Positions 11,044 through 45,211 of a stretch of DNA of 64,000 nucleotides are shown here, in pieces. The notes under the pieces are model-generated. The model worked only from the letters and a program-made list of their open reading frames with translations, did not search any database and was not told where the DNA came from. The stretch is from NCBI GenBank assembly GCA_033964015.1, contig CM066917.1, positions 30,331,951-30,395,950 on the forward strand, given 5' to 3'. The position numbers and the translations under genes were made by a program. The stretch comes from Scolanthus callimorphus. Taxonomy: Eukaryota; Cnidaria; Anthozoa; Actiniaria; Edwardsiidae. How positions within the stretch are numbered: the stretch's first letter is position 1; the number at the start of each line of letters is the position of its first letter.

Positions 11044-14000
11044 TTAACCTGACTGGGTATGTTGCTCTTTATAGATCATTCCTTGTCGCATACCTGGGGG
11101 ATTCGTATTTGGTGGTGGTGGTTTCTGAGCCCCCGGTAGTCCACCCGGGCAGGGGTTCCCCTTTTTGCTGCAGTACCTCCGATCAAAGCATCCCTTTACC
11201 ACGTTCTGTTCGAATGCTCCCATCATGTTTCCAGCCTTTCTGTATCGCCCTACGACAAAGTAACAGATTCCTCCCCAGTTACTTTTCTTGGACGCGATGC
11301 CAATACCTAATTCAGTACTTCCTTTCCAAACTACTTGTGTGAAGTGTCCAGTGGCGCCACTGAAACCGGGTCTGTTAAAGTTATACTTGCAGACCTCTTC
11401 ATACCTAGGGGAGAACGACAGATTACCATGAGGTGGCCCAGGGCTAGTGGCTAGATTGCATACAGACACAAGTGTTTCGTCTGCTTTGCGCGCGAATCGC
11501 GGACTAGGAAATACACCTGCGCGCCAACGAATCACCGAATAGAACAACAAAAGAGCCCGTTTATAGGTTAGCCCAAGTCTTAGCTACAGGAAAGCACAGT
11601 CTAAAATCACACTAAAGCGGAAAATTCGGGCACTACTGTGAGCTTTTTCTTAGCGTTTTTTTCCGTCATCCTTTCGGCGTTTCGGCGTTACTGTATGTCG
11701 TACCCCTTTTCAACTGTTTTTAATAAATCCCGTTTCACGGTTACTTGAAGAAATTCGTAAATACGGCTCTAAAGTTGTGTTATCATCCCCAGATTACTTG
11801 TATCGCTTGATACTAACCTAATAAGCAATGTAGGTAGGTTTTATGATATAACTTCAACCGGCGTTGAAAGCTGTTCATCCTAACAAGATTTCAAAAACTT
11901 ATAACTGCAATCCGTTTCTATCTGCTCTGTAATAGATCCATGAAACCTATAGCTGTGATCGCTTTGTGGTGGAGGGACTATCTAACAAACCTCTAGTATC
12001 TTGGCTTTTCATCCGTTTTGTTTTTTGGATGTTTTTTTACATCACCAAAAGTGTTCTAACCAATCAATACCCACCACATATCAACCGCCGTAGCCCCACT
12101 AAAGTCTCTTTGGCATGTCATGGCCAGGTTCTCACCCTGACCAGGCCTTTCATTTGAGCTTGAATGCTGGAGGCTACCCATCCTCGCTAATTTCTCGGCG
12201 TACGCCTGCGCAGAACGGGACATCGCTGAATCCAGGGTCATCATGGGAGCATTGTGGGCGCGCCTGTAGTAGTTATGACGCTCAAGGGCTTCCTGCTCTG
12301 TTGAAGCTGTAAACGTAAAGCATTGCGATCATATGGTCGCCAATAGCGACTTAATTTGGAGGCTTGGCGACCAAAATTTTAGAGCTAGTCACCAAATGGC
12401 CACCCATCCTTCTAAGTTCAGCTGAGATCCATGTTAATGTGGCGACTGAATATAGTGTTTTTTGGCGACTAAATATTGGTATTAAATAATGTCGGGCTCT
12501 GGTAGAAGTCCCTGAGGATGACTAGCGGAGAACAACGATAGTCGTATTTATTACTATGATAGAGCAGATTTCGTATGAACTGTGAAACGTACCGTGACAC
12601 GGCGCGGTACTGTCGCGGTGGCGGTACGGTGTTGAGGCCACATTTGTAATAACCTGCCACATTTGTAATAACTGCCACATTTGTAATAACATTGTGCCAC
12701 ATTTGTAATAACTGCCACATTTGTAATAACATTGTGCCACATTTGTAATAACTGCCACATTTGTAATAACATTGTGCCACATTTGTAATAAGTGCCACAT
12801 TTGTAATACCACTGTGCCACAGTGTAATAGCGGAGCTCCTTAGCGGCCTAAGGTTCGTAGAGCGGAGCACCATAGCTATCGCAGGAAGAATGCAATAACT
12901 CAAACTAGAACTCAGGTATACGATCGACTTTCTTATGGTTCAGCGGTATTCCCATATGGGTATCACGGGCGCGTCCGTGCGTGCCTGCGCGCCCACAGGT
13001 AACCAAGACCCTTCTCCGTATAAATCATATCTCAGGAAGGGATGAAGCCAGACAACCTGGGTGGGGGTGGGGGTGCCAGTGGCAAGGGGATGCAATTACC
13101 TGGTCACGTGGTATGACGTCATCGATGACGTCATCGAGGAAAAGAATATATCTCTGTAAGGGTTTACCCTCAGACAACCAAGCTTTGGTGAAATTGTCTA
13201 AGGTCACGTGGTATGACGTCATCGTTGAGGTCATCGTTGAGGTCATCATAGAATAAACAATATATGTCGGGGAGGGATGAACCTCAAGCAACCAAACTTG
13301 GGTTTAAATTGTCTAGTTGACAAGAGAAGCACAGCGAAGTGGTCATGTGCCGTGACATCATCGATGGCATCATTAAAGTTTGAAAATTCATATCTCGTGA
13401 AGGGTCGTAGCAAGGAATTTTGGTTGTGGGGGGGGGGGGGGGGGGGGGGGGTGGCGGATACTGAGAACATAGGACGAAAATTTCCTCCAGTAAATACAGT
13501 AGAATGCATGGGAAAATATCCCGAGAAAGGTGGGGGGACGGCCCCTTGTGCCCCCCCCCCCCCCCCCCTCCCCCGGCTACGCCCCTGAAAATGATACATT
13601 TTCACAAACCTGACGTATCTAGCCGAACGTTCGGGAAAGACTCAATCAAATCCCATTCGTTCGATTGAGTTTGATTGGGTTCAGTAATCACCATAACTCT
13701 CCAAAAATGTTTGCAATCAAACGTTCGAGTGCTAAATTTGTTTTCAATCGAACACATTCGAACTTCAAGTGAAAAACAGCAACACACAAAAAGCCAAAAA
13801 CATTCTGTGCTGTTTGGCGAGCAAAAATACTAAATGAACTGTAAAGTCTGTGTAGTGTAGTGTGTAATCATAGTGTTTTTCGTTGACACAAAGATAATAT
13901 ATAGATTGGGGCACTACCTAAAAGTGGAGCTCGAATCAATACATATTGTCATCGATGTGTCGACTTTTCTACATTTGATGACGTCATTGATGACGTAATG

Positions 14001-19226: not shown

Positions 19227-22200
19227 TTACCACACATTTTGGAAACGGAGACGCATCTTCTCGACACGATTAATAGGCCATCTCTTCTCCGGTTGTCCAA
19301 CCGGGCAGGGGCTGCTTCCCTTCTTTTTGCAGTAACTCCGATCAAAGCATCCCTTCACCACATTCTGTTCGAATGCTCCCATCGTGTTTCCTGCCTTTCT
19401 GTATCGCCCCACGACATAGTAACAGGTTCCTTTCCCACGCTTCATGGACGCGATGCCAATACCTAATTCAGTACTGTCCTTCCAGACTACTTGTGTGAAG
19501 TGTCCAGTGGCGCCACTAAATCCAGGTTTGTCAAAGTTATACTTGCAGACTTCATTGTACCTAGTGGAGAACGAGAGATTACCATAAGTTGGTTCAGGGC
19601 TAGAATACGTACAGTCGCTGATATGCGTGGGAAGCGGACCTGGAAATACACGGCTGCCACGGAATGGGCAGTTGCATTTAATCCGCACTGCCCCTGTTGA
19701 AGATCTCGTAATTCCAGGGTGGGTGTTCATCAAAAAGCACTGGGGGTGGGTACTCTGGTGCTGGAGCAAAATTCCAGGGTGGGTATCCAAAAGGATTTCC
19801 AGGGTGGGTGGGGAAAACCTAAATTACGACCAGGGTGGGTAGCTGAACCTGAGGTCCTCGACAGGGGCAGCAGATTATGTTTGCGACTGCCCACTGGACA
19901 TACATGAAAGAGAGCCTGCTTATAGGTTGTGTAGGTTACATATACAGAATAGGAATACACAAAATCAAATCATTTCAAGCGCTGAGCCTTGTATGTTGTT
20001 TTTTGGTGTTTCTAGACTACTATATTTCGGAAGCCCTTTCGACTGTATACGTGACTGTAATCAAATCTAATCTTCTCAGCTATTTTTAAAAACCACCACA
20101 TATCAACGGCTGTAGCCCCAGTGAAGCCTTTCTGACATGCCATGGCCAAGTTTTCACCCTGCCCAGGCCTCTCATTTGCTTTTGTATGCAGCATTTTCCC
20201 CATACTCGCTATTTTCTCGGCGTACGCCTGCGCAGAACGGGACATCGCTGAATCCAGGGTCATCATGGGAGCATTGTGGGCGCGTCTGTAGAAATTATGA
20301 CGCTCAAGGGCTTCTTGCTCCTTTGAAGCTGATAAGAAAAAAATATTGCAGCGCTAGTTCTAGTCTGGTGAATAATCTGTTATCTAATAGTGTACGCCAA
20401 ACTATTACTACCGAAACCGGTAGACTGTTTATCGGGCTCGACAAAAAGCACTCGTCTCACAAAAAAACCTTGACGAGTCTGCTTGCATTCCTTCACGCGA
20501 AATCATTCATGCGTTGTGTCTCTGGCAAACAAAAACTTAAAGTTTCGGGAAATAATACACTGATTTGTGTTTCTTTACCCCATAAAATTATTAGAACACA
20601 AGCAGATGGCTTTTCTTGTGTTTTTTTAGTTCGAAAAATTGCCAAATAAAATATTTGACTTGCACGCATCGCTGACCTCAACAAAGGAATTCAAACTACA
20701 TCGTGAATGTTTTTGTCTGGAGACGAGTGCTTTTTCTCGAGCCGAAAAAGCAGTCTACCGGTTTGGTAGTATACACTTAATGACTGCTCCCGAGGGAAAC
20801 ATCAGTTTTGTTTCCCGAGAATCTCGATGTTTCCCGAGACGAAGTCGAGGGAAACATCGCCGATTCGAGGGAAACAAAACTGGTGTTTCCCGAGGGAGTA
20901 GTCATTAAGTGTTTTGTTATATAGCAGAAAATGTACTGCAATTATTAAGTCAAAACAAATGTATTTCAAGAATGAAAAGAGAAGTTACAAAGTTTGCGCG
21001 CGACTGCATCATGTAAAGGGAAAACACTCATAAACAACACAATTTTCTTGCATTAGCGAAAACTTATCAAAATTAGCAAAGGTTTTTAAAAAGACTCGCG
21101 TGTTTGCAATAAACTTTCTCTTTTTTCCCGCTCTCAAACGCGACGCTTGAAAGCAATATTCCCCGATCAGTCAATAATTTTTCGAAATATTGACTGATCG
21201 GGGAATATTTGATTTGTTCTTCACCACGTGACCTTGATTAAGCCAATAAGAGCGCGCGCTCGGTTGGAGTGAGCACTCGCTATATAACAAACAGCATTCT
21301 TACTCGACAGCCCGAGATTATTCTTTTTGATCGAAGGCCCTTCGAAAACGCATAGAAATGACTAAATACGCTGTTGCAGGCTTATTTTTGCGAGGGGAGT
21401 TGTGCCCATGACTCGTTTACATAACAAACACAGAGAAGGGTAGACTAGCTGTGGTGCCACAGAGGCAAATATAGGGTAAACGGATTCAAACTTACCGAGA
21501 GTAGTCTTCATCAAGCCTGGAAATGGGAAAATACACGTGAACGATTAGAAACTTGTGAATACATCTAAATAGATACTCAAGTATATTCACTTCTATTCGA
21601 AATTAGTATAAACCAACTAATGGTCTATTACAAATCCTGCATTCTGATTGGCTGAGCTACTAATGGTATATTAGTGATAGACCGTGCCTGGCAAAACCAC
21701 CACCTTTCTTTGCAAGAAAACTTGATTTTTTCAACATAAAATAATGGAATTCATTTCCAAAACCGACCAACTAGTTGGTTTATACTAAAACAATTAGACC
21801 CTCGTCCTCATGTGCTATGATATCAATAGACCATTCGGCCTTCGGCCTCATGGTCTATTCACCATAGCACATTCGGCCTCGAGGTCTAATTGTTAAATAA
21901 TGCTAAAGGATGCTAACCTAATATGTTATGGATAGATTTTAGTGCTTTTCGTCCGCAAATCACATCAATTGATTATATTTATTTAAATGGGCTCGAGACA
22001 ACTGTTGAAAGTAAACAAAATTATTTGTTGCAAGTTCAAGCTACACTTTCGAGAGGGGGTTGTCTTATTTAGGCCAACAATCCGATATTATAGGATTATT
22101 CAAAGCTTCAAGAGGCTAGATCCTTGCGTTGGCTTTTATAAAGGGAGAAACACAAGTTAACTCCATCACAGATTCAAGAATACTTGGCGAGTTTCTTCAT

Positions 22201-31800: not shown

Positions 31801-33244
31801 ATCCAACGAAAACACAAATGCCATGGTTCTAGTGCCAAAAAATACAGGCTATAATAGCAATTCAACAAATATATATATATATATATATATACTGTATATG
31901 TGAATATACAGTATATAATATATATATACTGTATATGTCAATATTTTGTGAACAACAAGTTTAACTTTGTAGAGAAGGAAGAGTGCCGGTGGAGTCTCTA
32001 AAAAAAAAAAAGATAATCGGGGTTGCCGTTTTGCATGCGGTAACGAAACAAATATATATAGGCCGACCTAGCTTGGTTTCGAGAGTTGTCTATCCAGGGA
32101 GCAAGGACGGGAAAGATCAGGTGGGTGTTTTGGTGTATCGTAATTCCATTTTCTATCTCAGTGAAGTCGCTAATCACAGTCCTAGATTTATGAGCTGTTC
32201 CGAATTCCGCGACAAAGAAAAGAAAAGAAAGTTCCATTTTAACGAGGAAAATAAAGTGAATCTCAACTCTTGTTACCCTTCATGTCTCTACTTATGTTCC
32301 ACAATCAACCATTCAGAGAGAATACGAATGAAAGTCGGATAAGTACTAAAATCGACTAGATTTTCGTTCTTGTTTCATGTGAGGTATGTATTGCTCATTC
32401 TAAGTAGGCCATTATCACCTATACTTTCGAGTAGATTACTGCTTCTGATTTCGGTTCTTCTCCTTTTCCCACACACCCAACCGGAACCAATGGCATTTCT
32501 CAAAGGAATGCTGTAATTTTTTTGCGAGCTGCTATCTTTTGAAGAAACCCTGTACCCGTCCGACTCGAAAGGTGCCTTTTTTTTCTTGATATTGAATAGT
32601 TCTTCATCTTTCGTAAATCATTGTTTTGATAATGGCAAGAAAATGACGGTGCTTACACAAATACCGTTCGAATTATATTGTTTTATCAATTCTTGGCAAA
32701 TAGTCACTGGAAGTCGCGTCGCAAATTTATTGACCAAATTTTAAAAGGATGCCATGGTGAGTAACCACAGGGAATCTGGCACTAAAGTGACTGAAACTAT
32801 AAAGCAGATATTTAGATAGTCGCATGCTCTAATAAAAGACATTTCAGCACTTTTATAGGAAGTTTTTGATAGCCTACCTTCTCGGAATCTAAACACCCTG
32901 TAAGGCTGATTCCCATCTTTTTCTTCCAAGCTGTTAGGAACCTTGACTTCGACTATATCAGCCATTTTCCGTATAGCACATCTAAACCTTGTTTTCCAGA
33001 CGCTGGGGTCTGCTCTTTCGCCTTTTCGAAAACGCCCCGTAAACTCAGCCCACAATTGAAAAACTACGGCATGTTTGTTCAAATCGAACTCAGGACTATC
33101 TACTCTCATCCAAGGAATTCGAAAAGTTGTCTTATCAGTGTCTAGCCACCTTAAGCCTTCAACTTCGCCACTGTCGACGCGCTCGCGAAGCCAGACCTGG
33201 AATCGCTTTCTAGAAAGCTTTCGAGCTTGTCTCGACATAATCAT
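28814..33244 (-). CDS. Interferon regulatory factor (IRF)-like transcription factor, C-terminus not found
   Basis: Exon 33244-32878 starts with ATG and encodes a complete IRF DNA-binding domain: five tryptophans at residues 18, 33, 45, 65 and 83, with GLRWLD, KTTFRIPW and WKTRFRCAIRK. IRFs bind ISRE-type GAAA sites in the nucleus and in vertebrates drive innate antiviral responses; cnidarian members exist. Exon 32549-32419 (basic, serine-rich) and the long exon 29610-28814 follow in compatible phase; a 25-base exon 32790-32766 is needed to join the first two and is tentative. The long exon is Ser/Asp/Glu-rich like an activation region. Its frame changes once by one base near 29390-29400, so that segment needs a corrected base to read through. 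It ends with a clean GTAAGT donor in phase 1, so more exons follow below 28814, where the IRF association domain should lie. Assignment of the first exon is firm; joining the 29 kb exon to it is inference from strand, phase and composition. Confidence 0.75.
31868..31945. repeat. AT microsatellite with atatacagtatata inversions
   Basis: An (AT)n run is followed by two copies of atatatactgtatatgt in alternating orientation. It lies in the IRF intron. Confidence 0.85.
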
Positions 33245-34390
33245 AGCGGGAAGAGTTTCGTTGACGAAGTTTCGACACTTTTAAGGAGTTTTAGACTGAA
33301 CTTAAATCAACAAAACTGGATCTTTTTTTCAGTTAAAAGCTTCGAGAGCAATAGCCCATTTTAACCAGTGTTTCAAACTCTGTTATCTCATCTGACAAGG
33401 CAGTTATCTGAGCTATACATGCACCTTTTATACTCTAATCAACTTGGGCAACTTTAAGGCACCTCCCCTGGCACCTCTACATACCAGCCAGGGACCCTCT
33501 GTGATTTTGGTTGCAATTACGTCATTGTTTACACTGATGTTACCAGCACGTTTGTTACTTATTTCCGTATACATATTGTATATTGTGACGAAGACAACAA
33601 GTTATTTCCTTTTGGCTTATTAAAAAACAATATGTCGATTTTCCGCTTTTCGTGGAAAAAAGCTCCCATACAACTTCCTTCCGGCAGAGTTGGCTTAATT
33701 AATACCGAGCTTAGAAAAGCATGTTTTACTGTTGTTTGTATGTTTGTATCAGACATTTTTTAGAGATATAGAATTAAATGCACTTCTACAAAAATACAAC
33801 AGATACTAAACCTGTCCTTAGAACAAATTCTGACGAAACTTTTGGCAAAATGCATAGACATTTTTGTGCCGATAATTCCCTAATAACCACAGCATCCCCA
33901 AAAAGTCACCGCGTGAGATATTGAAAAAAACGGTGTCAGCTGTTTTGAAGGCACTTGAACTGCTTGAACACAGTAAGACCGCAGAGATAGAAACGGAAGA
34001 AATGGTTTATTTTATAAACATTTACTAAACAAGTTAAATTACTGAAACGCGCTTGTATGCGGACATAGTGATTAGAGTGCACAAGTGTGTGACCCTGGTT
34101 ATACGTAACACAAGAACCGAAGCAGGCATGAATATTTAAAATATCGTGGAGCTAACTTCTGCTTGCCTTGCCATATAGACTCCACTATAAGCCACGGCGA
34201 TGCAAACCCTGGTTCAGGTATCCTAACTCTTAACAGGTCTTAGCAACATGTCCAACATACTAGGAGGCCTAGCGCTCTCTGTGGGGTAGTCCTTAACTAT
34301 ACCGCCCTTTCAGACGGAAAAAGTAGCAGACATTTGTGTTGTCTGACGTTTGGGGGAATTTCCAGTTTCTTTTTTAAGTTACGGTATTTC

Positions 34391-34523: not shown

Positions 34524-35825
34524 TTTTTGAGGATTAAAATTTACTCGGATATTCCATTCGGGGTTATATACAACTATCGGAAGGGAAGGCTAATTACCAG
34601 TAGCTACCAGTATAAATATATAAAAAAGTAATGTGCTTTCTTTGGTTATTAAGGAATTTCCTATCCTGGTATTTTGATTAAAGCTCCGCTGACAGATCCA
34701 TCACTCATAATGTCATTTGATAAAAATTTCAATTCTCCTTACAAGCGCGCGCTTTCCGGGTGTGCTCGTTAAGCAATTCTCCTTTCACATTTTCTGTCTC
34801 TTTCCGACAAAAAATATTACTAAAAACCTAGCTAGCTATAAAATGTTATTTCTAACTATAGACAACTAAATCAGTGAAAGACGAGAATTCGGGCTAGCAC
34901 CATAACATATTGGACAACTCACGACAAAACAAAGCGCTATTCGGGGGTCGTCTTCTTCCTTTTTCCGCCTATTTAGATCGGGCACCTATTTTTTTTTTTT
35001 CAAATTATATCGGGCCATCCATCTGCGTCTCAAGCTGCCATTTCTTTGAGTACAACCACGTGTATATAGTTGGACTGAATTAGGGGAAGGTCATGTTTTT
35101 GGAATTTTACGGTACTTAGGTATCCCGGCAGCGTGTTGGGGATCACCCTTTCCTCGCTTTCCAACATGTGCCATCTTATAAAGTGGCACGTTGTGGTATC
35201 CTAAGGCGAAGATGAAACTATTTTCTCTTGTCCTTATAAAACTCCCAACTATCTATTACAAAAACATTCGCCACAATGGTTAAATATCTTTTATTTGTAG
35301 AATCAAGTTTTTGCCATTGTTTGCCATTGGGCCCCGCCAAGCGAAAACGGCACTTTGTCAAATCCCTGTTATGAAGAGTTTTAGGGAGCTAATTTATGTA
35401 TCTAAACACGGAGCATATATATTGGTCATCCAAATTTCGGCACGATAAAGTAGAGATTTGGCAGGTTAAATTATGTTCAATTTTACAAGAGTGTATGGGA
35501 ATTCTTTCATTCTGCCACTTCTCTCGTGTACCTTTTACTTATTTTTAAAACTGTAGAAGGGGTTTCAATTATCACTTCCATCCAATCGTTGTAGTTGATT
35601 TGAAGAAATAACCTTGGCTCAATATTCGATCTTCTCTCTTTCAAAGAAAGTGTTTGTTCACTTTAAACACGTGTTTATTAATCTACATATTAAAACTTTT
35701 ATAAGACTGTGCACATTTTTGCATTTCATGAAAAGTTCCATTATCTAAGTGAACAGTAGCAAAAGAAAAATGTGTTTTGCGCGCGACGTGATACACCATT
35801 TGCATAGTCCATCGATCCATGAAGC

Positions 35826-35952
35826 AGGGGCAGATCCAGGAAATTCAGAAAGGGGGGGGGGGGGGGGGCGGATAGCGAAAAAATGGGACGAAAATTTTCA
35901 AATTTCCTCCAGCAAATAAATACATTAAATGTATGGGAAAATCTCCCGAGAG
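35826..35952. mobile_element. GGGGC(A/G)GATCCAGG-type element, diverged copy
   Basis: caggggcagatccaggaaattcag, G tract, then gggacgaaaattttcaaatttcctccagcaaat and tgtatgggaaaatctcccgagag. Same family as 13404, 16290 and 42711. The right terminus is lost. It lies just upstream of the Scm3-like gene start. Confidence 0.65.
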
Positions 35953-36073
35953 AGACTGTTCTACTGGATAATGGTCTTTTTGATTAAAATGTGGTTGAAA
36001 AAACCCGGGGAGATAACTTATCATCGGGCTTCCTGTGGCTTTATAAGAGGATTGGTAACGAATCTAAACTGTC

Positions 36074-39000
36074 ATGGCGGACGGCGAGCTCGAAAACTCG
36101 AACTCGCACACATATTTGTCGTTTGCTGAGCGATACCAAAGTGATTTGGAGATTATTTACCAAAAGGTGGTTTTCAGTAATTATCCTTTGCTATTATGGT
36201 GTTAAAAACGGGCTTGGATGAGAAATTGGAGCAAATTTTTCCGTGATGAAAATTCCCGCCAAAATGTCTTCACTTCTTCTGGAATCTAAAGCAGTGTTTT
36301 ACGCTAATACGATTGAAAGCACAATAGGGACGGAAGCACAAGCCTTGTTTGTGTGCATAGATTAGCATAGAAGGAGAATTGGCACCCAGTGTATGCAAAG
36401 TTTCTACCTTTTTGAGTCAAGATTGGCTCTGTCTCCTTATAAGACCTTATAAGAATGTGTTCCAGTAAATCAAGTTTACAATAAAATATAATAACTAAGT
36501 TAATTTTGGTATATACCATAATTTATAGGTCCAAAACACCCCAACTCCAGCATTCTGGCAGCTGACATCTCTTTGAATAACTTGCAGGCTGTTCTGATGC
36601 TTCTCACTCTACCTAAAACAAAACAACATATGTTGTCAGGGAAACTCCTCTAAAAGAATATACACAGTATATTTCTACATTTGTCAGAAAAATGCATTGC
36701 TCTAACAGGAAATATAGCAACTCTCTTATTATTTGCAGTATGAGCACAACTTTGACAACTGTACTGTCGAATCAGAGGGGATATTGTTAAGTACTATCTG
36801 TGATGAGGGTAAGTTGATTAGGTTGAAATCTCTAATTTGTTCATCATCATCATCAGCTAGCGACCCTGGGGACCGGGATAAAGTCCACTACCCGCCGCCA
36901 CACCTTGCGGTCTGCCATGGCCACAGGAAAGTCTTCTTTCTCCACCCCCACATCCCTAGTGATGGTATCAGGGTATGTGAGGGCTCTGTAACGGACAGGG
37001 CCACAAGGCCTCCACACCAATACATGATGTATTATTTCCTCAGTGGCCCTGTGGCAGTGCCCAGTGAGCGACAGCCTCCGCTAAATGACCATATGTGACA
37101 GGGGCGGGATATCTCCATATATAGGCTCGAGGGTGGCATGCTCCGACCATTGAATGTTTTGGATGCGTCTGAGCATGTTACAGTGTGATAATTAATTTGC
37201 ATGCTTTCGCCTGCTTAGCCAATAACAGGTGGTGATTGTTAGTGAGACCGCAGAACTGCTTAAGTCACGATACAGCAGATTGCGTTTGACTGTTTAACCC
37301 CAACAGTTTGCACGTTATGTTTGAACATTGCAACGTTGCGTTTCTAGGATGGAACAAGACGTTTCTATGGAGAACTGAAATGTTCTGCCCTCTCTGATTG
37401 GTCAGTGAAAAATAAACATGGCGGTTGCCCTTGGAAACGTCTCACTTTTTGTCTCACAACGCAACTTTCAAACGTTCAAAGGTAACGCGCGAACTGTTTG
37501 GGTTAAACAGTCAAATGCAATCGGCTGTAAGTGTTCACTTCATGAAAACAAAATATAAAACTCACTAGTCAGCCCTAAAATACAGCGAAAATTTCTCGAT
37601 TACAATGAACAGGAAAATTGGCTCCGGTTGACAACAGGAATGTGTAATGTCAAGTGAACAGCCACTGTTAAGGATTGGTATAACTGAAAAGTGATTCTCA
37701 AGGGAAATTACATGTAACAATTAGAAATCCAAGAATCTATTGTCATATTCTTTGTTTTGACAAAACCATGACTCATGGTGATGTGAGATCAGCTGATTAT
37801 ACCTATGTATCTATTCATTAGGATCAATTGAGCCATGGCTGAAGGGATTTCTAGAATGTAAGTGAACAAAAATGATTTGTTTTAACTACTCTTGACAACC
37901 ACTCGATTCTAGTCTATAATGAATGCATGTGCTATATAGAGCAGAATTCATATGACTGTGAAAAGTGCTGTGAAAGAGTTGTGCCGCGCCACGACTAAGT
38001 GATTTCATTCCATATCTACAGCAGGCCAGGTTCCGTACCGCCACCGCGACAGTACCGTGCCGTGCCATGGCACTTTTCACAGTCATCCGAAATCTGATCT
38101 ATCAGTAGTTGTGTTACATTTCAGTGCATAGAATGTGCATGTTGCACCCTGGATGTTGTGTTACATTATGAAGGCATTTCTAAAGAAAAGAGAGAAGTGC
38201 ACATGCTTATAGCTTGAATTGTCCATTGACAAGAAGGTGTTTCTTTTGCTCTAACCTCTGCAAGTAGGCTGCATTTAAAAGAAAAAGTAAGAAGTTTTCA
38301 TTCTCAAGTCAGGTTTTCTAGAGCCTGGTTTGTATTGTAAGCTGATTTAACGTCATCTTGAATTTCAATATGAAAAATTAAGCGTGCGAGTGCCCCTTTA
38401 AAACACTATATTTGGAAAACATTGCTCTTGCGCTAAAGCCTGGTGCACACTAGCGACATAACGACATAAGGACGTTATGTTGCAACGAAAAAAGTACAGG
38501 AAAATAATTAAAACAATCAATATTTTCCATGGATCTTTATTAGATTACTTCACCAAAGCAATCTTATGTTATTTTTTGACGACTTCAACTTCTTGAAACC
38601 ACTAAATTTTGTTTGCGTGACATTTTTCTTATGTCGTTATGTCGCAAGTGTGCACCAGGCTTAAGCCAATCAAAATACAGATGTGACATTTCACTGCATA
38701 GCCACTCAAGTTCAGCTGCCCTGCAGAGCCTTTGGTCCTTTTTCTCCATTGGCAAAGCTACACTGCTGATTGACACTGGTCCATTGATCATGCTTGAAGG
38801 TTTTTGTATCTTTATCTTTTCGGATAGACATTCATCCTTTTAAAGCCTTGCTGGCCTTTTTGCAAGATTTCTTGCTGAAAAATGATCGAAATTTGTAGGA
38901 AGAACTTGCAAGTACAATAAAAGTGCATAAATTTGTCAGAAAGAGATTGAAAATTAATTAAGGAATTGAGCATATTTTGCAAAGTTTAAAAAAAAAACAC

Positions 39001-42000
39001 CATTCACAGTTTTTAAACTGAGACTTCAAGAGGGATTTTGCCGAAAAAAGAGTTGGGAAACAAAGCATTTATGGCTGGGGACTCAGAAACAATTGAAGAA
39101 CTAATCACAACAAGGAAGAGGATATACTGGTCACATCAACAATTGTGTTGACCGAAAGGAACTTACAGGTACGAACAAAGCAGAAAAATAGCTCAGCAAT
39201 TTTTTCGGCCCAAAGTAACCAACATTTACATTTTATCAGTTTATCGGCTTTATTTTTGGTACCTACCAAAACTCCCTCCTCACAAGAAAATCTCATGTCT
39301 GGACTACACCCCTGGGAGTGGGGTGGAGTTCTCATTTTATCATTTTATTATGTTGCTCTACAGCTCAACATGGGATTACAACAGAAGAAGAGGATGTTGA
39401 GGAAGACGATGATGAAGGTTGGGAGTCAGATTCAAGTGGGCCTTCCATCTTGCAGGATGCTACAGCATCTGAACTGAGTGATAATGAGGTAGTACCCCAC
39501 CCTAGCAGCGTACTCTCTGGCAGCCAAGCTGTTGCATTATCAAAAAAGAAATGCAACTATAATACAATAAGATCAGAGAAAGGGGACCAAGATTTGAAAT
39601 CCCCAGAACGCCCATGGACTGGCCAGGGCAATAATGTTACAGAGGAAAACAATCACCTTTTCCTGTTGCAATCCACAAAAAAGCCCCAGAAGAAATCCCT
39701 GTGAGACCCCCAGTGGGAACGCCTGGATCTGCAAAGGATGATTACAAGGTGTCAAGTACAGGATGCTCTCGCAAGGCATTGACCTCTCCAGCACCCCTTA
39801 GTTCTTTCCTATCGGGAATCAGAAATTCTAACGTGCTTACTAGCACACAAATAGAATTGTCTCCAACTTCAAGACCAGATGGTGTCTTTAAGTTTGGAGA
39901 TCAGGACGAGCAACACAAGATATCTAGTTTACCTGACATGCAAAAGGAAGACGCAGCAGTGGCTGATAGTGATACCAGAAACGAAAAGACTTGTGAGGTA
40001 GTTCCTATCAGGCAGGCAACTAATTCCGCACCCAATCTTGCTCAAGCTATTCTGAACTCACGGAACCGCATAGCAAGTGTTCTTTTTAAAGCAGTTTCAA
40101 AGAAGGGGAACAGTTCTCAATCAGTTATTCAAAGAAGCAGTGCTTTTGATTCCATGTCATCCAAAGGTAGCTTCTCTACCTCAACATCGTTTCTTCCAGA
40201 CAAACTTTTGAAAGGATTTAATAGCCTTTTGACAGCGGAAATGAAGCCCCCCACTAATATTCCGCGGCACTTGCGTCTACCAAATAACACCGCTCAAGAA
40301 ATTTCGCGAGGCTCAGAGGTAAAGAGCTCCAAGCGACTCGTAATTACTGGAGTGAACACCAACTCCAGCCACGGGAAAGTCACCTTAGTTGCAAGTCGCA
40401 AAACGGTGAAGTTGAACCCGCAAAAGTCGCGCGCTTGTTTAAAGGAAATCGAGGAGGGCCCTTCGGAAATACAGCGAAGAAAAAGTACGGAGCCTGCAGA
40501 GCACAAAGTTAAGATTGTGGGTAAAGCTGTATGCGTATTTGGAAATACAGCAGCAGCAGATAGCATGCGACATGCAAAGAAGTCTTTTGAAAGTTTGTCA
40601 AGAGAAGCTACTTTGAAAATGTCTAGACCGTTGAGAAGTCAGGAGACTGTGAAACTACTTAATATTGATATTGCTGATACACCCAGACAGAGTGCGCGAA
40701 GAGTTAGTAGTTCAGGGAACAGCATTGCGATAACTAAGAGGGAGGGGCCGCAAGTTATCGACTTCACCCAAGATAGTGGTATCAGTGTCCCACATAGTGA
40801 CATTGCTGAAGTTTGTACTCCAGGACGAAATTGTTTAGCTGTAACGGAACAAGAATTGCATCGACACACGATTCGGAAAAGAGAGATGTTCCATGAAGGA
40901 GAAAGCAAGTCTCGAAAGCGACGACTCAGCGACGTTAGAATTTTATCGCCAAAAGTGAAGAAACCATGCACAGAAAATCTGATGGAGAGTCGTTTGTTAA
41001 GCACCGAGGAAGGACGATACAGCGAAAGAGAAACGACATCCAAGAGGCGCAAAAGCTGTGGCAGTCAAACTAGTGGGAAGGCTCATCAAGAATCACGTAC
41101 AAGCCCCCAGGATGGCCGGTTATCTGATCAAAAACCTCATCCATCACCTCATGGATCAAGATCTTTGGAAGAACCGCTTGTGACACGACGTACCAAAAAT
41201 CCGGCTTGAAGGAGCAACATTGTAGGTCTGGCAACCAAAAGAGTGTGGAAGATAAGAAAACAAAGACTCTTCAGTGCCCTGGTGATTACCGTGTTATGTC
41301 GTCGAAGAAGACCCCGAACGCTCAAGTTAAGAACAATGGTGATTGTGAAGGTCGCACAAAGCGGAAGCGCATTGTTTCCAGTAATGAAATAAAGAATGAC
41401 GCGCAAGATAGCAGAGAGCAAATAGAGGATATGCATGTGTTCTCAGCTGAGAAGATGACATATGGTCGAAGTACAGGTCGTAATGTTGACGGCGGTGCGA
41501 GTCGTGAAAATAAGCATGCAGAGATTCGAGATACGGGTGGTTGTGATTATAAGATTAAAGATTGCAGAGTTACGGGACGAAAGAATAAGACTGCAGATGG
41601 TCGACATATAGGTCGTGAAAAAAGGATTGACGATGGTGGGAGTCTAGGTGGTGCGAGTGAATTGTCAGACGATCGAGGTACAGGCCGTGAAGACAGGATT
41701 GCAGATGGAGGAGGTACAGGCCGTGAAGACAGGATTGCAGATGGAGGAGGTACAGGCCGTGAAGACAGGATTGCAGATGGAGGAGGTACAGGCCGTGAAG
41801 ACAGGATTGCAGATGGAGGAGGTACAGGCCGTGAAGACAGGATTGCAGATGGAGGAGGTACAGGCCGTGAAAGACGTTTTGGAATAGACACGAAGAGATC
41901 ATCGGGGCAATTCCGCGCATCCAAGGATCGATCGAGAGAAGACACGGAAGGGGCATTTTCTGATACGAGAACTCCATTTCGGAATCCGAAAATGGCAGGT

Positions 42001-42705
42001 CGTCGGAAAATCTCAAGCCCTTGGGAGCTCCCTTGCAAGGTGGAGTCTTCTTCAAGAGACAGTCGATTGATGCTGTTTCCGGATAAAGGTCAAACGAAGT
42101 GCGAAAGGTTAGATGTTGAGAGTCGCAATCTAGACCGATTATCTAAGCAATCACGTTTATTGACTCAAACAGATTCCTCGGAAGAAGACGAGGGCACGTC
42201 CCATAGAACAAAGCAACGACAGAGATGGGTTGAAAGTGGCAGAAGTCCAAATGCCCAAGCATCAGGGCCTCGCAGAGTATCAACAAACCGTAGAATGTCG
42301 ATTGATGGATTAGGAACAGGTGCGAACAGAGTCATCAAAGACAGAGAAACGAACAGAAAGGTTCAAAGTTCATTTTCCGTCAAGTGTTACAAAGAGCCAA
42401 CTGAGAGATATGATGAATACGATATCTCAGGTGAGGATATTCTATCAGTCGAATCACTGACGAAAAGTTCAGACAAACGACGTCGCGTTTCGGGCATTCA
42501 GGACAGCAGACACCGGACGCGTCATTCCTCTAGACCGACTGGAAGAGTGATGAGATCAAAGAACTCGCAGGGCAGCGAAGGCACGGATAGGGAGTCTAGC
42601 TCGGCATACGAGTCGTGGGATGAGTCTGGGGCTTGTGAGGGACCTGGGAGGTGTACTAAGCACGTGTGTATAGACTGTGGGAGCTTTTATTTGAATAGAA
42701 GGTGA
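36074..42705 (+). CDS. Large disordered nuclear protein with a candidate Scm3/HJURP (CENP-A chaperone) N-terminus
   Basis: Exons 36074-36166, 36739-36808 and 37822-37857 join in phase from MADGELENSN. They encode SFAERYQSDLEIIYQKYEHN, then FDNCTVESEGILL and ICDEGSIEPWLKG. The pattern II-x-KY-x3-F(D/E) followed by an I-x-D-x-G stretch resembles the Scm3/HJURP domain that binds the centromeric histone CENP-A. A short exon at 39010-39051 is a tentative link to the last exon, 39364-42705, which opens with an acidic run (EEEDVEEDDDEGWES) and continues as about 1,100 residues rich in Ser, Arg, Lys and Asp, as expected of a disordered nuclear protein. It holds six 12-residue GREDRIADGGGT-type repeats and ends in a Cys-rich CTKHVCIDCGSFY tail. 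The long exon changes frame by one base at 39655-39695 and again at 41195-41200, so it is read as three abutting frames. HJURP-type function is inference from a short domain; an unrelated disordered protein is the alternative. Confidence 0.6.
36845..37190 (-). mobile_element. LINE 3' fragment in intron 2 of the Scm3-like gene
   Basis: Read on the minus strand it encodes LTGHCHRATEEIIHHVL, LTYPDTITRDVGVE and MADRKVWRRVV, the typical C-terminal end of a non-LTR retrotransposon ORF2, then a stop and a (GAT)n tail at 36845-36856. Internal stops show it is dead. Different subfamily from the one at 28020. Confidence 0.7.
37936..38102. mobile_element. MITE of the ATAGAGCAGATTTCGTATGA family
   Basis: tatagagcagaattcatatgactgtgaaaagtgc at left and gcacttttcacagtcatccgaaatctgatctat at right are inverted. 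The GC-rich interior (caccgcgacagtaccgtgcc) matches the subterminal blocks of the 12559-14603 element, so this is a 167-base deletion derivative. Confidence 0.75.
38436..38664. mobile_element. MITE with AAGCCTGGTGCACACT ends
   Basis: aagcctggtgcacactagcgacataacgacataag pairs with cttatgtcgttatgtcgcaagtgtgcaccaggctt, 35-base near-perfect terminal inverted repeats, with a 160-base AT-rich middle. TAA/TTA flanks. Lies in an intron of the Scm3-like gene. Confidence 0.85.
41675..41870 (+). repeat. 36-base coding tandem repeat (about 5.4 copies)
   Basis: ggtacaggccgtgaagacag plus gattgcagatggag repeats five times with no substitutions, coding 12-residue GREDRIADGGGT units. Upstream 41440-41675 has decayed versions (DGGS, GREKRIDDGG), so the array grew from an older degenerate repeat. 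Confidence 0.9.
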
Positions 42706-42710
42706 ATAAT

Positions 42711-42883
42711 CCAGGGGCGTAGCCAGGAATTTTGTTGGGGGGGGGGGGGGTAGTGAAAACATGGGACGAAAATGTTCAAATTTCCTCCAGCAAATACAGT
42801 ACATGTATGGGAAAATCTCCCAAGAAAGGGGGCCGCGGCCTCCTGTGCTCCCCCCCCCATCCCCCCTGGCTACGCCCCTGTAA
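42711..42883. mobile_element. GGGGCGTAGCC-type element with intact ends
   Basis: Left end CAGGGGCGTAGCCAGG and right end CCTGGCTACGCCCCTG are perfect inverted repeats around G and C tracts and the conserved gggacgaaaatgttcaaatt and cctccagcaaatacag middle. It starts a few bases after the stop of the Scm3-like gene. Confidence 0.8.
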
Positions 42884-44205: not shown

Positions 44206-45211
44206 CTAAGGATCCACATTTTGCAAATCAAAACTATGGCCGAGATTCTTTCTTTCACATTTAGCGCATCGCATACTGCTTTTGAAAACTTGGCGAAAAT
44301 CCCCACTTGTTACATGCAGGATTACCGGATTGACGCACGCGTGACTGAAGGACACCATTTTTGTCAACCCCTCCACGTATTCAATGTATTTCCAGGTAGC
44401 GTATTCCGGACTTGCGTATTCCAAGACTATGTGGACATTAATTGGGGTAATTAATATCAGAAAAAGAATAATAAACGCTTTTAAAGTCCTTATCATTTTG
44501 ATATTGCGTCTGCCGCGCAAGTTTTGCACCACTCGCGAACCCAACACCCCGTTAGCAATCAAGTCGTTTTGAAGTCGCTTATTGATTTCCACACAAGCCC
44601 AGCTAAATACAAGACTGGGCAATATTAGCACCATCAAAGGTTGCCATACTGTTGTAAATAACTTGATATCAGTACGAATTGCGTCGCAGAGTAGAATGCC
44701 TTTGACATCTGTTAACCCAAACAGAAATGACAAAGGCAGATCCATGAGAATTAGCGCCGCCACCCAGATGAGGGGAATCAGTATTTTAGTCTGACGTTTT
44801 GTTATCCTCGCTGAAAATGGCTTGCTGATGCTCTATATCGCTCTAAGTTTATCGCCACCAAAGCCAGAATCGATGTAGCTTGTAGCGCATTGGGGATAGG
44901 CCGAATAAATCGACACAAAAAAACTACCAAAAGGCCAGGAGATGCACTCGCTGAAAACCAACAAAGGGACAGACAGAAGCAATCGGCAGAGATCGGCACA
45001 AGCAACGTTTAGGATAAGAAAGTTGAACGGCGTCTGTAGGGACTTAGTCCTGCCAACCGCTGAAATAACCAGGCAATTCCCGAAGATTCCGAAAATGAAG
45101 AAAATCCGTAGACCGTATATGTGGAATGTCGATGGAAAATACACAGATGGCTGGGTCCGAGTTGTTTGAGCGAGTGACGGCCATTGGGAGACCCATCTCT
45201 TCGTCCTGCAT
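44206..45211 (-). CDS. Rhodopsin-family GPCR with three frame breaks
   Basis: Single-exon receptor of about 335 residues if read through. It starts near the ATG at 45211 with an N-glycosylation site (NNS) in the short N-terminus. TM1 has FIFGIFGNCLVI, TM2 the TPFNFLILNVACADL stretch, TM3 starts after a conserved cysteine (LCRFIRPI) and ends in LERYRA, the E/DRY motif. TM6 and TM7 follow, with HACVNPVIL in place of the NPxxY motif, then a short Cys-containing tail ending FDLQNVDP. The frame changes near 45120, in the seven-base T run at 44917-44923 (minus-strand sense) and near 44830. Either these are assembly indels or this is a recent pseudogene. The class resembles cnidarian amine/neuropeptide-like orphan receptors; the ligand is unknown. 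It would act at the plasma membrane through G proteins. Confidence 0.8.

Follow-up and report, generated by a model that had tools for sequence, protein, structure and literature searches.

A candidate cnidarian Scm3/HJURP gene with an intron inside the KY motif of its putative scm3 domain

Introduction

Does the gene that starts at position 36074 of the window (the whole stretch of 64,000 nucleotides of Scolanthus callimorphus DNA that was analysed) encode a centromere chaperone of the Scm3/HJURP type? This had been proposed in a preliminary description, which also held that, beyond vertebrates and fungi, proteins of this type are difficult to detect. The latter statement is fair as to method but out of date. 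In the excerpts of Hollis et al. 2026 (PMC13322267) on which we draw, CENP-A chaperones are described as changing fast and as long thought to be missing from many animals, and Scm3/HJURP orthologues are reported for most of the animal lineages examined. A candidate from the octocoral Paramuricea clavata is listed there with a HMMer E-value of 2.0e-5. Our literature search brought up no cnidarian HJURP report beyond this paper among the matches listed. If the assignment is true, the gene described here would be the second cnidarian example beside the octocoral candidate. As the class of finding has already been published (PMC13322267), the surprise is limited: what is proposed here is a further member of a kind already in print and not a new kind.

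Structure of the gene

The gene lies on the forward strand and extends from an ATG at 36074 to a TGA at 42703-42705. Four exons could be read from the sequence. Exon 1 (36074-36166) contains the start codon and the N-terminal helix (residues 1-31) and ends with ...DLEIIYQK; its ATG is preceded by in-frame stop codons and has a G at both -3 and +4. Exon 2 (36739-36808) encodes YEHNFDN...STICDE plus one base and carries the KY tyrosine, the FD, and the I-x-D. Exon 3 (37822-37857) completes D-E-G and continues with SIEPWLKGFLE. Exon 4 (39364-42705) is read in three frames; it encodes an acidic stretch and then a disordered, basic region of about 1,000 residues rich in Ser and Arg, and ends with CTKHVCIDCGSFYLNRR and the TGA.

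The three-exon N-terminus of the preliminary description was confirmed, since exons 1 to 3 have GT/AG borders and agreeing phases (0, 1, 1) and exon 4 carries the reading frame on from 39364. Exon 1 has a weak donor (AAG|GTGGTT); the sole other nearby donor inspected by eye, CA|GTAATT, is situated 10 bases downstream and would break the phase. Exon 2 has the acceptor ttgcag|TAT and the donor G|GTAAGT (phase 0 in, 1 out), and exon 3 the acceptor attag|GAT and the donor AAT|GTAAGT (phase 1 both in and out). The exon 4 acceptor, ctctacag|CTC, preserves the frame, and further acceptors also leave it open. The first splice junction creates the K|Y pair (QK|YEHNF), which depends on the weak donor of exon 1.

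The open pieces comprise 173 amino acids (exons 1 to 3 included), 505 amino acids, and 501 amino acids. At the local base composition, 505 codons without a stop would arise with a probability of about 1.6e-12. The pieces are separated by two frameshifts within exon 4, both on the forward strand and both at A-runs: at 39677-39682 the open frame changes from 0 to 2, and at 41196-41200 from 2 to 1.

The 597-Mb assembly of the same animal was searched at the DNA level with 1,001 bases of exon 4, and only the self-match and no second copy was found. A protein search of the same genome with residues 1-173 gave only three matches, each to an exon of the window itself (exon 1 among them), and no paralogue.

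Layout of the protein

The whole product has about 1,180 residues. It begins with MADGELENSNSHTYLSFAERYQSDLEIIYQKYEHNFDNCTVESEGILLSTICDEGSIEPWLKGFLES, and EEEDVEEDDDE follows shortly after. The candidate domain consists of residues 1-66; residues 67-110 are acidic with a charge of -16.4, and the remainder is basic with a pI of 9.0 to 10.0 depending on the piece. A charge-hydropathy line, a crude measure, classes 95 of 114 segments of 50 residues as disordered. The acidic stretch and the roughly 1,000 basic disordered residues that had been described for this gene are thus borne out. An in-frame tandem repeat (36 nt in 5.5 copies, 41675-41871, forward strand) was found by Tandem Repeats Finder with 100% matches; it encodes the 12-residue units GTGREDRIADGG.

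For exon 1 alone, AlphaFold2 predicted, with no alignment, a single helix from residue 3 to 30 (mean pLDDT 83.0 for the best model, 55.6 to 83.0 over the five models). Together with the KY made by splicing, this single-sequence prediction yields the helix of about 25 residues ending in KY that is expected of an scm3 domain (PMC13322267). The short domain within a long, polar, and disordered protein that is expected of scm3 proteins was found as well. None of the exon 4 pieces matched a Pfam family, and the families of the middle and C-terminal parts of HJURP were accordingly not found on them. The animal HJURPs reported in the part of PMC13322267 used here have a short scm3 domain and are otherwise largely unstructured and polar, which the layout of this protein matches.

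The C-terminal end (42634-42702 of the window) contains four close cysteines, C-x5-C-x4-C-x2-C, and has no Pfam match. It is possibly a metal-binding end.

Comparison with Pfam families

With a 54-residue core piece the Scm3 family (PF10384) was the sole Pfam family matched (E 0.11, 12.7 bits). All Scm3 scores shown lie between 12.7 and 14.1 bits, below the family cut-off of 24.3, so that the search gave a match but a sub-threshold one. We varied the ends of the piece, which gave 80 fragments, and compared 23 of these and the 54-residue piece itself, 24 in all, with Pfam. Scm3 was matched by 19 of the 24 with a best E of 0.029, the SEA family by six with a best E of 0.0061, and no third family appeared. 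Scm3 was absent from the other five fragments, from a 35-residue piece without any Pfam match, and from pieces of 76 and 179 residues, on which SEA was the sole family (E 0.015 and 0.069). On N-terminal pieces SEA outscores Scm3 (E 0.0061 to 0.069).

As a control, 50 shuffled sequences were used in which the motif residues I, I, K, Y, F, and D were kept fixed. None of the 50 matched Scm3. Some other Pfam family was matched by five of them at E 0.09 to 0.22, and an E near 0.1 taken alone therefore means little. In the excerpts of PMC13322267, divergent orthologues were accepted with HMMer E-values up to 0.99; for this reason the sub-threshold score lowers the claim without excluding it.

The Pfam Scm3 alignments span positions 9-29 or 10-29 of the 53 profile positions, that is, the helix and the KY only. 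The motif had been described as II-x-KY-x3-F(D/E) with a downstream I-x-D-x-G. KY-x3-FD and ICDEG are indeed present, but the spacing is II-x2-KY (IIYQKY).

A SEA domain was considered as another candidate for the N-terminus and rejected. The match covers only positions 16-55 or 17-55 of the 106 profile positions, it reaches at most 17.1 bits among those shown against a cut-off of 26.4 (PF01390), and little room is left before the acidic stretch from about residue 74. Nor is SEA the confident match to a different family that the preliminary description had named as speaking against its proposal.

Further similarity tests

A profile was built from three sequences, human HJURP, Saccharomyces cerevisiae Scm3, and Kluyveromyces lactis Scm3. 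The 54-residue piece scored 9.4 bits, which was reached by none of 20,000 shuffled sequences and by none of 1,324 open reading frames of the window. Residues 1-100 scored 7.8 bits and the whole protein 3.7 bits, and the top rank hence depends on trimming. When a similar three-sequence profile was compared with the PDB, 13 of 16 rows were unrelated chains with up to 12.3 bits, more than the 9.4 bits of the 54-residue piece. A phmmer search of the PDB with the 76-residue piece gave four rows without an Scm3 or HJURP chain among them; the best was a designed alphaRep protein (E 0.0017, no single stretch passing).

An HMM-HMM comparison with the Scm3 and HJURP profiles had been suggested in the preliminary description. 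The hhalign profile-profile score of 19.1 beats most shuffled sequences, being reached by none of 600 full shuffles, none of 300 in which KY was kept, and seven of 300 in which the motif was kept, but the nominal probability was only 3.8% and 17% in two runs. In pairwise comparison with human HJURP, four of 5,000 shuffled sequences equalled the score and two of 1,978 decoy peptides exceeded it. The shuffle counts from hhalign weakly to moderately suggest a resemblance beyond chance. The Scm3 signal, as far as profiles and shuffles can tell, is real but weak, and it appears to be situated in the helix and the KY and not in the strand.

Searches for relatives were negative within their scope. 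Residues 1-120 gave 134 candidates in a protein collection, none with an E up to 10, and a fungal-like Scm3 probe gave seven candidates in the same collection, none of them confirmed. As this probe found none, the collection seems to be without the Scm3 family, and consequently no profile of relatives was obtained. Pattern scans of viral and genome contig collections gave five and 38 pattern matches, respectively, of which none was confirmed. PF10384 was also run against the animal's own genome, six-frame and exon-wise; five candidates were scored, none with an E up to 10. This result is no proof of absence, because none of 14 control genomes gave a signal either. A domain split by the intron would explain why such a search misses it. 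An intron placed within the KY motif gives a practical warning: six-frame exon-wise profile searches are blind to a domain divided in this way.

Comparison with known Scm3/HJURP proteins

Human HJURP (PDB 3R45 chain C, PF10384) likewise has an N-terminal helix followed by KY-x3-F(D/E). Over 22 residues, RFQRRMQRLIEKYNQPFEDTPV, the two can be aligned without gaps with six identities (R, Q, K, Y, F, V), and both have hydrophobic or aromatic residues at positions 0, -4, -7, and -11 relative to the tyrosine of KY. At -15 human HJURP has a serine, whereas the residue here is hydrophobic or aromatic, and the human strand region (TLTY...) is not recognisable in this protein. An intron position shared with human HJURP, whose isoform borders may lie near residue 62/63, was considered but given no weight here. 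With 748 residues (PMC10070699, from the part of that paper used here) the human protein is shorter than the approximately 1,180 residues found here.

The fungal Scm3 proteins (S. cerevisiae 2L5A, K. lactis 2YFV) share the hydrophobic residues at -4 and -7 before KY. They differ by II-x-KY in place of II-x2-KY, and their DLxTGE stretch is not conserved in this protein. In S. cerevisiae the distance from the tyrosine to the aspartate of VEDNG is 20, compared with 21 for ICDEG here; the K. lactis chain stops before D-x-G, and the spacing was therefore compared with S. cerevisiae only. The segment after KY, DEGSI, thus stands at near-fungal spacing, and the Pfam alignments end before it. According to PMC13322267, again in excerpt, this part of scm3 (the acidic/hydrophobic strand and DxGxL) is relaxed in animals.

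In the excerpts at hand Drosophila CAL1 has a helix with the key contact residues W22 and F29 seven apart (PMC7110144), which resembles the arrangement found here. In contrast to this protein, CAL1 has DF instead of KY (PMC13322267), and further helices wrap CENP-A-H4 (PMC7110144). The P. clavata candidate (CAB3982230.1) is from the same phylum and has the same expected layout; it was set beside our protein by its description in PMC13322267 only.

Components of a CENP-A system in the same genome

An Scm3/HJURP protein is expected together with its histone, since HJURP and CENP-A are reported to be lost together (PMC13322267, in excerpt). In the animal's own genome 42 H3-like places were found, 35 of which were examined. 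One is a divergent full-length H3 (G000:C5:29408206-29408721); the other 34 are near-canonical H3 or broken pieces. The divergent H3 has 171 residues with an N-terminal tail of its own, ends with ...LALRIRGNSFI, and is identical to canonical H3 in 83 of 133 aligned residues. From its sequence it is a CENP-A candidate.

For exons with a SANTA domain, the mark of M18BP1/KNL2, five matches were obtained; four of the five, at two places each on contigs C5 and C98, are above the Pfam cut-off (E 0.05 to 0.07). One of the stretches on C5 is about 99% identical to one on C98, which suggests a haplotig or a recent duplicate. Two adjoining exons with similarity to the CENP-C cupin (G000:C7:17980247-17980896) are situated on the same contig as the window. 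They score 24.5 and 21.5 bits against a cut-off of 29, and the family also gives sub-cut-off signals in eight of 14 prokaryote controls. From the divergent H3, the SANTA exons, and the CENP-C-like exons it follows that a CENP-A system requiring a chaperone is probably present in this genome. Together with the gene structure of a cnidarian chaperone, these exons and the CENP-A candidate would form a tractable set for the study of chaperone-histone coevolution.

Which protein does the gene encode?

We consider it probable that the gene encodes the Scm3/HJURP orthologue of this animal. This is the best-supported reading with Scm3 in 19 of the 24 fragments, but no score shown reaches the Pfam cut-off, and the identity proposed in the preliminary description is upheld in this weaker form. 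The fuller statement, a cnidarian Scm3/HJURP with an intron that splits the scm3 domain precisely at the K/Y boundary and with an in-frame 12-residue repeat in its tail, is favoured slightly less strongly. Our estimate for the orthologue is a judgement in which the chance of about 4e-6 per sequence, multiplied by an assumed 30,000 genes, was set against the one true gene expected; credit was given for the N-terminal position and the layout, and a penalty was applied for the choice of fragments and the weakness of the independent tests.

The main competitor, clearly less probable although to be taken seriously, is an unrelated disordered, basic, Ser/Arg-rich nuclear protein, chromatin or RNA-binding, whose N-terminal helix is scm3-like by chance. 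The candidate was picked for its motif resemblance, and it has Scm3 scores below the threshold only. Shuffled sequences that keep the motif match some family at similar E-values (five of 50), and a comparably small Scm3 profile gives higher scores to PDB chains that are unrelated. From E 0.11 over 24,736 families the chance of about 4e-6 per sequence is obtained, which would amount to about 0.1 chance matches in a proteome of an assumed size of about 30,000 proteins. Yet the similarity reaches past the chosen motif, as Scm3 was matched by none of the 50 shuffles and the hhalign score was reached by only seven of 300, and position, helix, and layout all fit Scm3/HJURP. Another reading, a secreted or cell-surface protein that starts with a truncated SEA domain, would account for the pieces of 76 and 179 residues, with SEA as their sole family, and for the six fragments with the best E of all; it is nevertheless very improbable, given the low and partial match, the acidic stretch that leaves little space to complete the domain, the start MADGELENSNSH, in which no signal peptide was seen by eye, and the basic, disordered remainder.

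The two frameshifts raise a different question, namely whether the gene is a pseudogene, a decayed copy of such a gene, which would be compatible with its assignment to Scm3/HJURP. A-runs are frequent error sites of long-read assemblies, and both frameshifts lie in A-runs; the simplest reading is a sequencing or assembly error, while decay is possible. Against a pseudogene stand also the 505 and 501 open codons, the splice sites, and the single copy in the DNA and protein searches, and we regard it as unlikely.

As an Scm3/HJURP protein, the product would be a chaperone carrying new CENP-A-H4 to centromeres. In the structures of HJURP, Scm3, and CAL1 the helix lies antiparallel on helix 2 of CENP-A and the formation of the tetramer is blocked (PMC7110144, PMC13322267, both in excerpt). 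By analogy, the scm3 helix would span residues 14-32 or so and pack in antiparallel orientation against helix 2 of CENP-A, with Y21, L25, I28, and Y32 (perhaps also F17) pointing towards the histone. Residues 33-60 may form a strand or loop that reads loop 1 of CENP-A, and the acidic stretch may help to shield the charge of the histone. The basic disordered tail could bind DNA and recruit the protein to Mis18/M18BP1 or CENP-C.

Surroundings of the gene

The neighbouring genes are encoded on the reverse strand. An IRF DNA-binding domain was found at 32741-33280 and a piece of a 7tm receptor at 44206-44832 of the window, and further away there are two CAP-domain pieces at 11044-11583 and 19227-19823. 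These genes suggest that the DNA comes from an animal and are uninformative on function.

The gene is bracketed by two copies of one dispersed repeat (35825-35954 and 42712-42828). They share one orientation, are 74 to 92% identical depending on the piece, and lie about 120 bases 5' of the ATG and 7 bases 3' of the stop codon. In addition, introns 2 and 3 each contain an MITE-like inverted-repeat element (37271-37529 and 38432-38666) with arms of 72 and 60 nt, respectively, and in both elements the arms are 115 nt apart.
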